The notes below the pieces were generated by a model, which saw only the letters and a list, made by a program, of their open reading frames with translations, did no database searches and was not told where the DNA came from. 10,825 bases of DNA, taken from an uncultured Helicobacteraceae bacterium. Lineage in GTDB: Bacteria; Campylobacterota; Campylobacteria; Campylobacterales; Helicobacteraceae. Made by a program: the position numbers and the translations under genes. Of this stretch, positions 5,108 through 10,817 are shown in pieces. The stretch is taken from the NCBI GenBank assembly GCA_934728205.1, contig CAKVEH010000030.1, positions 1 through 10,825 of the forward strand. Direction: 5' to 3'. Position 1 is the stretch's first letter. The number at the start of each line of letters is the position of its first letter.

Positions 5108-5947
5108 TTACCAAAGTTTAAATTGCGTTTCAGTGCTTTTGTAGAGATTTTTTCGCACACCGCCTATATCATATTCTACGGCAAATCCGTATTTTACGGT
5201 TGTATTGCCTGATTTTCGTATTTTTGCTTTTTCATACACATCCGCTGGAATAGCTAGCGAGCCTACACCAGCCGAAGAATGTGGAGGGAGCTTTTTATTT
5301 GCGTTTCCATCGGTTATGAGATTCCCATCCATATACAGCGCAAGGTGGGAAATGTCTAAAAACTCTTGTGTTTTGTTGTCTATACTAAGAGCTACCGTGC
5401 CTTTAGAGAGATTAAAAGAATTTGCCTTTAGCACAAGATGTTCGTTTTCTATGCTAATGGCGGGGACAGATTTGTCTTTTAAAACCTTGCCTGCTGGCGT
5501 TTCGCCTCTGAAATTTGGCGCATACATATCCGCCCCGCGTGAAAGTAGTAATGCTATCATTTCTTTATGGTTGTTTTTTGTGGCGTAGTGCAGTGGCGTA
5601 TTCCCCAAATGCTCATCGGCGACATTGACTTGCGCTCCTTTTTTGATGAGTTCTTTTGCCACTTTGACATCGCCTAATGCCACGACTTTAAGTAATGCTG
5701 TCTCACCGTGGCACACAGCATTGACATCTGCCCCGCGCTGGATTAGGAGATTTACGATTTTTAGATTCCCTTTTCTTGCTGCGTCATAAAGCGGAGTGCT
5801 ATCGCGCAATCTCGCTTCAATATCTGCTCCAAGTGATATACCCTTGCGCACTTCCGTGTAACTATCGCTAAAAAGCATTGTGTTATACCTGTCATTTGCC
5901 TCTTGTGCTAGGGTAAATGCAAGCATTACAATCATTAAATATCTCAT
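5108..5947 (-). CDS. Exported ankyrin-repeat protein with a C-terminal beta-rich domain
   Basis: A short signal peptide (MRYLMIVMLAFTLAQEA, cleavage probably near 14-17) precedes ankyrin repeats. The first (about 21-45, ending ISLGADIEAR) is degenerate. Clear ones follow: TPLYDAARKGNLKIVNLLI with GADVN (51-76), ETALLKVVALGDVKVAKEL with GAQVN (82-108) and TPLHYATKNNHKEMIALLL with GAD (117-140), then a partial cap. Residues about 160-279 are different: Asn/Ser/Lys-rich, alternating hydrophobic, without repeats, probably beta-stranded. Its function is unknown; ankyrin stacks bind proteins, so a periplasmic scaffold or inhibitor is conceivable. The ATG is preceded by AAGGAAA at suitable spacing. 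The gene is upstream of ddl and divergent from the TonB-dependent receptor. I recognise no named homologue. Confidence 0.85.
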   Translation of the reverse strand: MRYLMIVMLAFTLAQEANDRYNTMLFSDSYTEVRKGISLGADIEARLRDSTPLYDAARKGNLKIVNLLIQRGADVNAVCHGETALLKVVALGDVKVAKELIKKGAQVNVADEHLGNTPLHYATKNNHKEMIALLLSRGADMYAPNFRGETPAGKVLKDKSVPAISIENEHLVLKANSFNLSKGTVALSIDNKTQEFLDISHLALYMDGNLITDGNANKKLPPHSSAGVGSLAIPADVYEKAKIRKSGNTTVKYGFAVEYDIGGVRKNLYKSTETQFKLW

Positions 5948-6178: not shown

Positions 6179-6184
6179 TATAAT
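6179..6184 (+). promoter_or_regulatory. -10 box of the TonB-dependent receptor gene
   Basis: A perfect TATAAT preceded by TTTTTTGT lies about 45 nt upstream of the receptor ATG. The expected start of transcription is near 6191, with a leader of about 39 nt containing AAAGGA at 6218-6223. Confidence 0.6.
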
Positions 6185-6229
6185 CCTTTCGCACAATCTT
6201 TGTGTGAAAAATATTTTAAAGGATTAAGT

Positions 6230-8431
6230 ATGAAAAGATATATTTCTACTTCACTCGCATTGGCATTGAGTGCTAATCTTTTGGCTAATGATGAAATGTC
6301 TAAGCAAGAGGGTATGCAAGAAGCTAAACTTGGTAAATCTACGGTTACAGCGCAAGTTATGCGCTCAGAGCTTGATGAGCTTAATCGTAGTGTGTATAAG
6401 ATTGATAAAGAGCAAATCGCAGAAAAAGGCTATCGCTCAAGTGAGGAAATATTTCGCTATATACCTTTTGTGGGGTTGGCAAATACAGGCTTAGGGAGCA
6501 ATTTAGATTTAAGAGGGCAGGGTAATCGCGCTAACACAAGCGTGCAGGTGCTCATCAATGGGAATTATTCTAATATGCTAGATTCTAGCCACGGCGTTAC
6601 GCCACTGAATACACTCTCGCCAAATAGCATAGAATCTATTGAGGTTTTGCCCGGTGGTGGCGCAGTAATGTATGGTAATGGCACGAGGGGGGGGGTTGTT
6701 AATATCCTTACACAAAAAAGATATGAGATTCCATATTTTAGCGCAGGGCTTGGCTATTCTAATATCATTGCTAGTGTGGGGAATAATTATAACGCCGATG
6801 TGCGCGTTGGTGGGAAGATTGGCGAGGGCACTTATATCACTACGAGCGCAGCCTATATCGATAGAGGAGGACCAAGACTAGGCGATAGGACTAATGGCGC
6901 GCAGGGTTCGTTTTCACTCACAAAGGACATTAGCCCTGATTCTAGTCTTAGCTTTGATATAGATTATTTCGCAGGGATTATCCGCACCACGCCGAATAAT
7001 TCCTTTAAGGATATAGCAAATCCAAGTAAGTCTGATAGAGGCACAGCGGGTAATGGACTAATGAATAATTCCCAACGCCGACTTGATGTAAGTCTAGCGT
7101 GGGATAAAGCTCTAAGTGAAAATGCCAAATTTGACTTACGCGCGTTTTATCACTTAAATAAAATCACTTATGATGATTCTATAACCAATCTTACAAACTA
7201 TAGCTATATGAATAATACTTTTAGCACGACTTCTGCTGACCAAAGTGGCTCACTTTTTAACGACCAAAAGGCTGGAGTGAATGCTAAATATGACTTACAT
7301 CATACCAATGGACGCTTTATGTTTGGATTAGAATCTATCTATCAAATAAGCAATCGCACAATGGAGCAACTCATTAAAGCAAGTGGCGGAGCGGGCACTA
7401 TTACCGCGTATAATCACCCAATGCACATCGCCTTTAATGGCAACAAATGGAATAGCGCGATTTTTGTATTAGAAAAATACGATTTTAACAAGCGATTATC
7501 TCTTACAGGCGGTGTGCGATATGAATATGCTTACTATGACATAGATGTGCGTAATCGGCAAACGATTACTATGATGCCGATGCCAAACCCGATACAAATT
7601 AACGGAAGCGGATATGTAAAAGATTCTCTGCATAACTATGCCTTAGAGATTACACCAAACTTCAAATACAGCGATAATGGCAATATATTTGTCAAATATG
7701 AAAAAGGATTTTTCTCTCCCTCTCCAAACTCTATGCTTACACGCAGTGGTAACAATTACATCACAACGAACTTAAAGCAAGAGGAGTATCACACCTTTGA
7801 GTTAGGGTTAAAAGATTTTTGGGGTAGTGTGGCATTGAGCGCGAGCGCGTTTTATACACTTACTAGCAATGAATTTTACACTATTGGTAACGCACATTCC
7901 GCAAGTGGCGTAGTTTATGGAAATTACGATAAGACACAAAGAGCTGGCGTGGAGATTTTCTCCGAGCAGTATTTGCTTGATGGAATTTTAAGCTTTAGTG
8001 AGAGTTTTACTTACATTGATGCGAGAATCTTACGCAATAATGGCGCAAGTGTGAAAAACTTACTTATTCCTTATGTAAGCAATTATAAAGCAACTATTGG
8101 GCTTAATTATAATCTTAATGCAATCTTTGGAATCTGGATACAAAATAGCTTCTATGGACAAAGTAAAGATATTGAGACTTTCACTACCACAGGTGGACGA
8201 CCTCAAACAAGAGCAAGCAATGGACAAAAAACCATCCCAGCTTATAGCCTCACAGACATTGGGCTAAATTTTAAACTAAGAGATTTCTCTTTGAGTGCGG
8301 GTGTGCGTAATGTCTTTGATACATTTTATTATAGCTATTACAACGGAGATGCGAGCGATAGTGTAGCGGGATATGGATTTTTAATCGGAGCTGGGCGCAG
8401 CGTGTTCCTTGAGGGTAGGCTGAGCTTTTAG
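6230..8431 (+). CDS. TonB-dependent outer-membrane receptor (siderophore/metal uptake type), phase-variable candidate
   Basis: The protein has 733 residues with signal peptide MKRYISTSLALALSANLLA. A TonB-box-like KSTVTAQ lies near 36-42. The plug domain (about 45-165) contains NLDLRGQGNR (91-100), VQVLINGNY (105-113), SIESIEVLPGGGAVMYGNG and GTRGGVVNILTQK (151-163), the conserved end of the plug. The rest is a 22-strand-type beta-barrel rich in aromatic and Asn/Ser/Thr residues. It ends in GRLSF, with the terminal Phe expected for BAM recognition. Such receptors import iron-siderophores, haem, nickel chelates or B12 using TonB-ExbBD energy; the ligand cannot be told. The ATG at 6230 follows AAAGGA and begins the signal peptide; an in-frame TTG at 6200 would spoil it. 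A G9 run lies in codons 153-156. The 3' end converges on the EamA gene, 23 nt apart. Confidence 0.95.
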   Translation: MKRYISTSLALALSANLLANDEMSKQEGMQEAKLGKSTVTAQVMRSELDELNRSVYKIDKEQIAEKGYRSSEEIFRYIPFVGLANTGLGSNLDLRGQGNRANTSVQVLINGNYSNMLDSSHGVTPLNTLSPNSIESIEVLPGGGAVMYGNGTRGGVVNILTQKRYEIPYFSAGLGYSNIIASVGNNYNADVRVGGKIGEGTYITTSAAYIDRGGPRLGDRTNGAQGSFSLTKDISPDSSLSFDIDYFAGIIRTTPNNSFKDIANPSKSDRGTAGNGLMNNSQRRLDVSLAWDKALSENAKFDLRAFYHLNKITYDDSITNLTNYSYMNNTFSTTSADQSGSLFNDQKAGVNAKYDLHHTNGRFMFGLESIYQISNRTMEQLIKASGGAGTITAYNHPMHIAFNGNKWNSAIFVLEKYDFNKRLSLTGGVRYEYAYYDIDVRNRQTITMMPMPNPIQINGSGYVKDSLHNYALEITPNFKYSDNGNIFVKYEKGFFSPSPNSMLTRSGNNYITTNLKQEEYHTFELGLKDFWGSVALSASAFYTLTSNEFYTIGNAHSASGVVYGNYDKTQRAGVEIFSEQYLLDGILSFSESFTYIDARILRNNGASVKNLLIPYVSNYKATIGLNYNLNAIFGIWIQNSFYGQSKDIETFTTTGGRPQTRASNGQKTIPAYSLTDIGLNFKLRDFSLSAGVRNVFDTFYYSYYNGDASDSVAGYGFLIGAGRSVFLEGRLSF
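6687..6695 (+). repeat. G9 homopolymer inside the receptor coding sequence
   Basis: Nine consecutive G encode the end of R153, G154, G155 and the start of V156 in the conserved plug motif. The present length keeps the frame open. One extra G gives GGT TGT TAA, a stop after residue 157. One fewer G gives a shifted frame ending at 6881 (about 216 residues). Both outcomes lose the whole barrel. Poly-G/C runs of this size are classic slipped-strand switches in Helicobacter and Campylobacter. Confidence 0.75.
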
Positions 8432-9598: not shown

Positions 9599-9608
9599 TT
9601 TTTTTTTT
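9599..9608 (+). repeat. T10 homopolymer just upstream of AAAGGAGG
   Basis: Ten consecutive T end one base before GAAAGGAGG. If the element is transcribed rightward, the tract lies in the promoter or leader. It is long enough to vary in length by slippage in Helicobacter. Confidence 0.5.
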
Positions 9609-9720: not shown

Positions 9721-9742
9721 GTGTTTTTTTTTTATAAAAATC

Positions 9743-9839: not shown

Positions 9840-10817
9840 TTATATCCGCACCACAAATCCATTTTCCTTATCCCTAGCACCCATAGAGTGAATCTCTAAT
9901 GGCACGCCATAGAGATTGCTTAAATGCGATTTGTCGAGCAAATCTGTGCTTGTGCCAAAGACCGCATTAGAATCTACTTTGCCATCATTGTGAAGTTTGG
10001 AAAGCAACAAAACCTTGTGTGATAAAAATAGTGCGTGGGCTGGGAAATGCGTGTTTAGCACGATAGATACGCCCTGCTTACTTAAGCATTTTAGCGTGTC
10101 TAAAATCATCTTTTGATTAGCAAAATCTAAGTTTGATTCTGGTTCATCAAGGATTAAAATCTGTGGGCGTTTTACTAAAGCACGGGCAAAAAGCACCATT
10201 TGGAGCTCTCCTCCGCTTAGCGAAGAGCAGTTTTTATCCGCTAGATGGGATACTCCTAGTTCGGTTAGCACTTCACGGGAGCGGGCGAAATGCTCCTCTT
10301 TTGGCTGAAATTTAATAGCATTATTTAGCCCTAGCACCACCATTTCAAGCGCGCTTATAGGCAGGATTGCACCCTTAGTCTGTGCGACATAGGATACTTT
10401 ATCCCACATAGTGCGTCCAAGCTCCGTGATATGAATCCCTTGCAATCTTATGTCCCCACTGCTTTTTAAAAATCCCAAAAGGCATTTTAGCAATGTCGTC
10501 TTCCCCGCACCATTGCGCCCCAAAATGCTTAAAATCTCTCCCCTCTCAAGGCAAAAACTAATGTGTTTTAAAATGTGTATTTTTTGCAATCCTACAAAAT
10601 GCCAAAAGCACAAATCTCTAACTTCTAGCAGGGCTGTTTTAGAATCTCCCCCCGCTTGAGAATCTAGCCCTACTTTTTGTGAAAAATCTTGCGACAAATC
10701 TTGTGAAAACTCTTGCGCGAAATTTTGATTGGATTTTTGCCTAGATTGTTGCTTAGATTCTTGCGAAGTGTCCTGCCTAGATTTTGGCAAAGATTTTGAG
10801 TTTATCATCTTGTTCAT
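9840..10817 (-). CDS. ABC transporter ATP-binding protein, iron-siderophore/B12 (FecE/BtuD-like) type
   Basis: The 325-residue protein contains one complete ABC ATPase domain (about 62-275). Motifs are Walker A GRNGAGKTT (100-108), Q-loop Gln146 in SYVAQ, signature LSGGE (200-204), Walker B LILDEP (221-226), D-loop SNLD (228-231) and switch His257 in NTHFP. Motif spacing and the phrase TLLKCLLGFLKSSGDI fit importers of iron-siderophore, haem or cobalamin complexes; the ligand is not determinable. It would form a dimer on a permease that is not in the window and probably lies further right. The protein is about 70 residues longer than usual FecE-type ATPases. The excess is mainly an N-terminal extension (1-61) with tetrapeptide repeats, plus a C-terminal tail (276-325). 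No start codon lies between residues 42 and 62 to remove the extension. The frame stays open to the window edge, so an earlier start cannot be excluded. Confidence 0.92.
   Translation of the reverse strand: MNKMINSKSLPKSRQDTSQESKQQSRQKSNQNFAQEFSQDLSQDFSQKVGLDSQAGGDSKTALLEVRDLCFWHFVGLQKIHILKHISFCLERGEILSILGRNGAGKTTLLKCLLGFLKSSGDIRLQGIHITELGRTMWDKVSYVAQTKGAILPISALEMVVLGLNNAIKFQPKEEHFARSREVLTELGVSHLADKNCSSLSGGELQMVLFARALVKRPQILILDEPESNLDFANQKMILDTLKCLSKQGVSIVLNTHFPAHALFLSHKVLLLSKLHNDGKVDSNAVFGTSTDLLDKSHLSNLYGVPLEIHSMGARDKENGFVVRI
10674..10781 (-). repeat. Nine degenerate 12-bp tandem repeats encoding tetrapeptides in the ATPase N-terminus
   Basis: Residues 13-48 read as nine consecutive four-residue units with Gln at the third position of every unit: SRQD, TSQE, SKQQ, SRQK, SNQN, FAQE, FSQD, LSQD, FSQK. 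The DNA shows the matching 12-nt period. Units have diverged but keep the CAA/CAG Gln codon. The segment is polar and probably disordered or weakly amphipathic helical. Confidence 0.7.

Follow-up and report, generated by a model that had tools for sequence, protein, structure and literature searches.

Does a run of nine G residues, lying in an invariant motif of a TonB-dependent receptor gene, make that gene phase-variable? The question is raised by a G9 tract in the window, the whole 10,825-nucleotide stretch of Helicobacteraceae DNA that was analyzed here, and comparison with related sequences suggests that the answer is yes: we put the probability that the receptor gene varies in phase through slippage at positions 6687 to 6695 at roughly 0.78. 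Slipped-strand mispairing during replication would add a G to the tract or remove one; in frame, the gene would give the whole plug-and-barrel receptor, and out of frame, translation would stop at residue 157 or 216, leaving a product without the barrel. A population would then be a mixture of receptor-positive and receptor-negative cells, with the switching superimposed on a proposed Fur-type repression at the promoter. In the window species, slippage presumably proceeds at useful rates, and the out-of-frame state is presumably null.

Judged by its domains and its structure model, the product of the gene is a TonB-dependent receptor. Pfam places a plug in the N-terminal part (PF07715, residues 49 to 156, 63 bits against a cut-off of 23.9) and a barrel in the C-terminal part (PF00593, residues 237 to 695, 110.2 bits against a cut-off of 27), the order required of a TonB-dependent receptor. 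The AlphaFold model (pLDDT 77.1, pTM 0.79) had FecA as its top Foldseek match (E value of 4.8e-31), and PqqU and other receptors were also matched. The substrate may be iron or haem; scores against the haem/haemoglobin receptor models TIGR01785 (111.2, cut-off 316.85) and TIGR01786 (105.1, cut-off 323.75) both lay below the cut-offs.

Table 1. Positions of the receptor gene, its slippage tract, the sites of tracts in relatives, and the putative control elements, numbered along the window
Feature	Positions	Strand	Remarks
Fur-box-like element TAAAAATCATTATTT	6159-6173		Matches a Helicobacter-type consensus at 12 of 14 positions; putative function
Candidate -10 hexamer, TATAAT	6179-6184	+	Seen in the sequence beside the Fur-box-like element; absent from the promoter-scan list
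Candidate ribosome-binding site, AAAGGA	6218-6223	+	Seen in the sequence
TonB-dependent receptor gene	6230-8431	+	733 aa, in frame (ON); from reading frame, Pfam, AlphaFold, and Foldseek
Plug domain	6374-6697	+	G9 tract at its end
G9 tract	6687-6695	+	Within the plug motif GTRGGVVNI; codes for R153, G154, G155, and the first base of V156
+1-frame stop, TAA	6700-6702	+	Directly 3' of the tract; position from sequence
-1-frame stop	6879-6881	+	From reading frames
Turn, codons 236-237	6935-6940	+	G10-G12 in nine relatives, no tract in the window; periplasmic by model strand order
Outer loop, codons 450-454	7577-7591	+	C12 in L016, and P0033 and P0034 end here; no homopolymer in the window; extracellular by strand order

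The tract, flanked by A6686 and T6696, is the only run of at least eight G or C residues in the window; from first-order composition, 0.003 runs of at least G9 would be expected. The tract has the length of about nine or more within an open reading frame that marks poly-G contingency genes, for which PMC5953494 gives a poly-G/C threshold of 9, and is at the lower end of the lengths that serve as switches. Gain of one G shortens the product to 157 aa and loss of one G to 216 aa, so that a change of a single base abolishes the full product, as in a poly-G phase-variable gene; because the tract sits at the end of the plug, the +1 product would consist of the signal peptide and the plug only. In these respects the initial annotation, which had placed the tract within GTRGGVVNI, predicted both premature stops, and called the present phase ON, was correct. 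Its description of the motif as invariant also held: in 31 aligned sequences, including that of the window, G151, T152, R153, G154, G155, V156, and I159 are invariant, and V157 and N158 are at least 90% conserved. Among the best 120 of 315 homologues, clustered at 90% identity, which form our homologue list, A replaced V156 in 2 of 113 motifs.

In close relatives, protein records suggest alleles of both kinds at this motif. The protein clusters P0001, P0002, and P0003 (100, 97, and 84% identical to the window protein) are full length. Four others, P0004 to P0007 (identities of 95, 87, 87, and 87% across 79% of the query), comprise 589 to 590 aa and start at an ATG in another frame, immediately 5' of G-G-G-V-V-N-I, which is the output expected of a gene caller at an out-of-frame tract; from these protein starts we deduce that the tract is out of frame in all four. 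The claim of switching stands in part on DNA, in which tracts of this kind were found in frame and out of frame among other species of the receptor family, whereas within the window clade the two states are deduced from protein starts.

The plug site is also used further afield. In the distant species G054 (locus L055), a G10 occupies the same motif codons and the frame is broken there, giving an upstream product of 162 aa, counted from the chosen start, that ends just past the motif; in G049 (L057), a G9 at the same motif is in frame in a different receptor (27% identity). These two were the only ones of 121 family genomes with the all-G pattern, defined as both Gly codons GGG plus the preceding G, with at least eight G residues when Arg precedes. 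The pattern was absent from 398 sampled genomes of other Campylobacterales, and the G7 of L022 falls short of it. In 398 sampled Pseudomonadota, a run of at least nine gave one match, out of frame in a nonreceptor gene, which we take to be that of a translation initiation factor. The plug codons were readable with the motif pattern in 20 of the first 26 loci, and the run was interrupted in all 20, with a longest G run of 2 to 7 (7 in L022); the other six had no G run of at least 7 at these codons. The initial annotation had regarded a tract interrupted in relatives as speaking against switching. Interruption is indeed what the 20 loci display, but they belong to other species, several of which have a tract at some other point of the gene. 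The same annotation's view that use of the invariant motif is notable is upheld, since the placement is real and has counterparts in G054 and, within another receptor, in G049. Placement of a tract in the plug motif would be new; it is rare and represented in three lineages. A single ancestral plug tract was considered and rejected: G054 groups with the tract-free bin31 (support of 97), a long way from the window clade, and the G049 tract belongs to another receptor.

Elsewhere in this receptor family, tracts lie at more tolerant sites. From 58 loci at hand, 31 were used, one per genome, after 18 second copies from the same genomes and nine distant, degenerate, or partial loci (L019, L020, L022, L024, L025, L026, L053, L054, and L056) had been set aside; the latter include L022, whose plug codons hold the G7, and L025, with a C8 within its gene. 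Thirty of the 31 represent this family and the remaining one is L057, the other receptor of G049; family genomes with split matches, such as G072, G078, G090, and G093, lie outside the count. An intragenic G or C run of at least eight was present in 11 of the 30 loci, six in frame and five out of frame, with nine runs at a tight turn near residue 236, one in an outer loop, and one in the plug; 19 loci had none. The turn tract is in frame in H. magdeburgensis, H. labetoulli, G059, G062, G063, and G064 and out of frame in H. cinaedi, H. japonicus, and H. marmotae. The sister species H. labetoulli (ON) and H. cinaedi CCUG 18818 (OFF) are distinguished by the tract and by two adjacent bases; the H. 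cinaedi records P0037 and P0043 (three Gly at the turn) and P0045 (four Gly) are full length. FastTree and IQ-TREE placed the window clade differently, with IQ-TREE support of 41 to 47, which bears on whether this clade lost a turn tract.

The outer-loop run is a C12 near residue 450 in L016, a metagenome-assembled genome (MAG), and is out of frame; the outer loop may be a second slippage site. P0033 and P0034 (98% identity across 61% of the query) have the plug in frame and end at ...TGGGTKP... in the loop that holds the C12 of L016. This loop is highly variable in close relatives, reading MMPMPNP, TGGGPNP, or TPTPRPGP. Three further observations concern related loci. In L005, L016, L021, and L037, a G11 to G12 run lies 312 to 542 bases downstream of the receptor gene, where a neighbor is possibly switched. 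In G063, the intact receptor gene has a second, tandem copy upstream (G063:C1:168618-170823, partly L027), whose match falls into three pieces with boundaries near residues 237 to 239 and 508 to 511. In L024 (H. mesocricetorum), the receptor was matched only piecewise, in three frames, and looks decayed.

The alternative that survives best, although we consider it unlikely, is that the tract is a chance homopolymer, made of synonymous codons for the invariant R-G-G-V and subject to ordinary slippage, and that the out-of-frame relatives are decaying genes. With the codon usage of the window, R-G-G would produce such a run with a probability of about 0.006 per receptor, so that one run among many receptors (112 of the 121 genomes gave a receptor match at an E value of at most 0.001) is not astonishing. 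The rarity of the all-G pattern and its interruption in every readable locus fit chance as well, and frames are broken also in two of the 19 tract-free loci, L013 (beside a T6) and L018 (beside an A9). On the other side, the four clusters and G054 break at the plug tract, with a barrel frame that is otherwise long and open, and in 10 further species the same receptor has tracts of 10 to 12 elsewhere in the gene, in mixed phases. Broken frames were found in 5 of 11 loci with a tract against 2 of 19 without one (Fisher p of 0.07); as this value is modest, more weight falls on the location of the five breaks, all of them at the tracts. Runs of at least nine G or C are abundant in all eight related genomes counted (G054, 112; G049, 21; G002, 129; G004, 124; G001, 73; G084, 89; G089, 76; and G087, 28), six of which have 73 or more. 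At such a density, one run in 10.8 kb is ordinary, and we count this abundance in favor of switching.

Homopolymers are the classic site of sequencing and assembly errors, and such errors could yield the out-of-frame forms of genes that are in truth all in frame. Some of the records are MAGs (L016) or very long contigs (2,083,009 bases for G054 and 1,355,212 for P0007). Out-of-frame forms nevertheless recur in separate records, both as clusters (P0004, P0005, P0006, and P0007) and as loci (L009, L010, L016, L017, and L055), and full-length proteins differ at the turn by entire Gly codons (1, 3, or 4 residues), which single-base errors would not produce; we therefore regard error as a quite improbable source of the pattern.

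Slippage of the tract as a genetic switch is compatible with a different role for the OFF state, in which the out-of-frame product is not null and is exported as a free plug (157 aa, or 162 aa in G054) that competes for TonB or binds the ligand. This idea follows from the end of the +1 product at the plug/barrel border, and we hold it to be very doubtful. The five out-of-frame plug-site alleles, that of G054 seen as DNA and those of P0004 to P0007 deduced from the best 120 of 315 homologues, are all +1, a pattern that is compatible with a preferred free-plug product and is no proof of it; the G049 tract has no immediate +1 stop. On the same doubtful reading, three lineages may have come to this site because a slip there cuts at the domain border and leaves a single ON length. 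Transcriptional or ribosomal slippage, by which one genotype would give both forms and the tract would set their ratio instead of a heritable state, is possible in principle at a long homopolymer but hardly credible here, as genomic tract length and position vary among relatives and the frame is lost, which points to slippage at replication.

If the tract is a replication-slippage switch, its position should limit how it operates. Exactly two Gly residues were present in all 114 in-frame plug motifs among the best 120 of 315 homologues (113 by the T-R-Gly pattern, plus P0068), the remaining six listed proteins being out-of-frame calls. At the turn, by comparison, 41 of the 120 listed proteins matched the pattern, with 1, 3, or 4 Gly residues in 8, 26, and 7 proteins, respectively. 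Since the turn varies by whole codons and the R-G-G spacing of the plug is fixed, a single length of the plug tract is expected to be ON, whereas the turn tracts of relatives can be ON at several. We predict that a tract in a rigid motif has a single ON length and stays short and that tracts in tolerant turns can lengthen to 10 to 12 and be ON at more than one length; as DNA, the lengths are 9, 10, and 9 at the plug site and 10 to 12 at the turn. Depending on the species, slippage switches would sit at three sites of one receptor family: an invariant motif that is buried, a turn on the periplasmic side, and a loop on the outside. The nutrient receptors of these Helicobacter may accordingly be phase-variable, like those of Neisseria.

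Promoter sequences hint at Fur-type control in addition. In 16 promoters, taken from the window and from 15 relatives (L003, L004, L007, and L023 were omitted from 19 relatives because their starts were unsure), the best matches to the Helicobacter-type Fur-box consensus summed to 188 against a shuffled mean of 160.7, and none of 300 shuffles scored as high, although the relatedness of the sequences makes this figure an overstatement. For the window alone, the E. coli Fur consensus was matched at 13 of 19 positions and 7.5% of shuffles did as well, which is not significant. The iron control assumed in the initial annotation is a weak point of its interpretation. In the leader of the receptor gene, positions 6187 to 6209 form a hairpin followed by a T-rich tail; sites of this kind occur at chance level here (2 found, 2.0 expected).

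A TonB receptor that combines Fur repression with an intragenic poly-G switch is already on record, HmbR of Neisseria meningitidis (PMC3068627); given this precedent, the case made in the initial annotation for Fur-type repression joined with stochastic on/off variation was overstated. The window gene resembles hmbR as a TonB-dependent receptor gene with an intragenic poly-G tract, the Fur control of hmbR transcription being a possible further likeness, and the effective tract length of 9 is the commonest ON length of HmbR (PMC3786947). The two differ in that the HmbR tract encodes glycines on the tolerant periplasmic loop T4 (PMC3068627), whereas that of the window lies in the plug motif, and in that HmbR is a haemoglobin receptor, whereas the window protein scored below the cut-off of TIGR01785. 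What sets the present case apart is the use of the invariant motif at the plug/barrel border. The closer parallel of the T4 site is the turn site of the H. cinaedi type: the homologues from H. cinaedi, H. magdeburgensis, H. labetoulli, H. japonicus, H. marmotae, G059, G062, G063, and G064 belong to the same family as the window protein (64 to 70% identity over the matched stretches) and carry their G10 to G12 tracts, some ON and some OFF, near residue 236 instead of in the plug motif.

Within the genus, H. canadensis shares translational switching through intragenic poly-G tracts of at least 9, and two of its G9 tracts ranged from G8 to G10 and from G7 to G11 in reads; it differs in that Table 1 of that report contains no TonB receptor and its main text does not mention TonB, receptor, or iron (PMC2823697). 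For H. bizzozeronii, 9-base tracts are listed in outer membrane proteins whose kind is not stated (PMC3234257), so that an earlier Helicobacter case is possible. Judged by title and opening of the abstract, none of the open-licence papers surveyed dealt with slippage tracts of Helicobacter TonB receptors or of plug motifs.

Synteny was considered as a proof of receptor orthology and rejected: none of the eight other genes of the window was found beside the receptor in any of 25 loci (L001 to L025; matches of the ABC gene below 40% identity were ignored), so that orthology is argued from sequence similarity. MurF of the window had a match in 117 of the 121 Helicobacteraceae genomes, the nearest six, including G084 and G089, being 63 to 65% identical; the window is therefore taken to derive from a Helicobacter. 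A search of viral contigs yielded no relative, nor did a first scan of genome contigs with the window protein as the sole query, and no known RNA family (Rfam) or tRNA was found in the window. Two T10 runs (positions 9599 to 9608 and 9724 to 9733) lie on either side of a region that has no evident gene and separates the EamA-type from the ABC transporter gene. An ankyrin-repeat protein gene (positions 5108 to 5947), divergent from the receptor gene, has a start that looks signal-like by eye. Downstream of the receptor gene by 1.4 kb, on the other strand, lies an ABC ATPase gene (positions 9840 to 10817), whose best NCBIfam match is a haem ABC transporter ATP-binding protein, at 132.9 bits and thus below the cut-off of 261.
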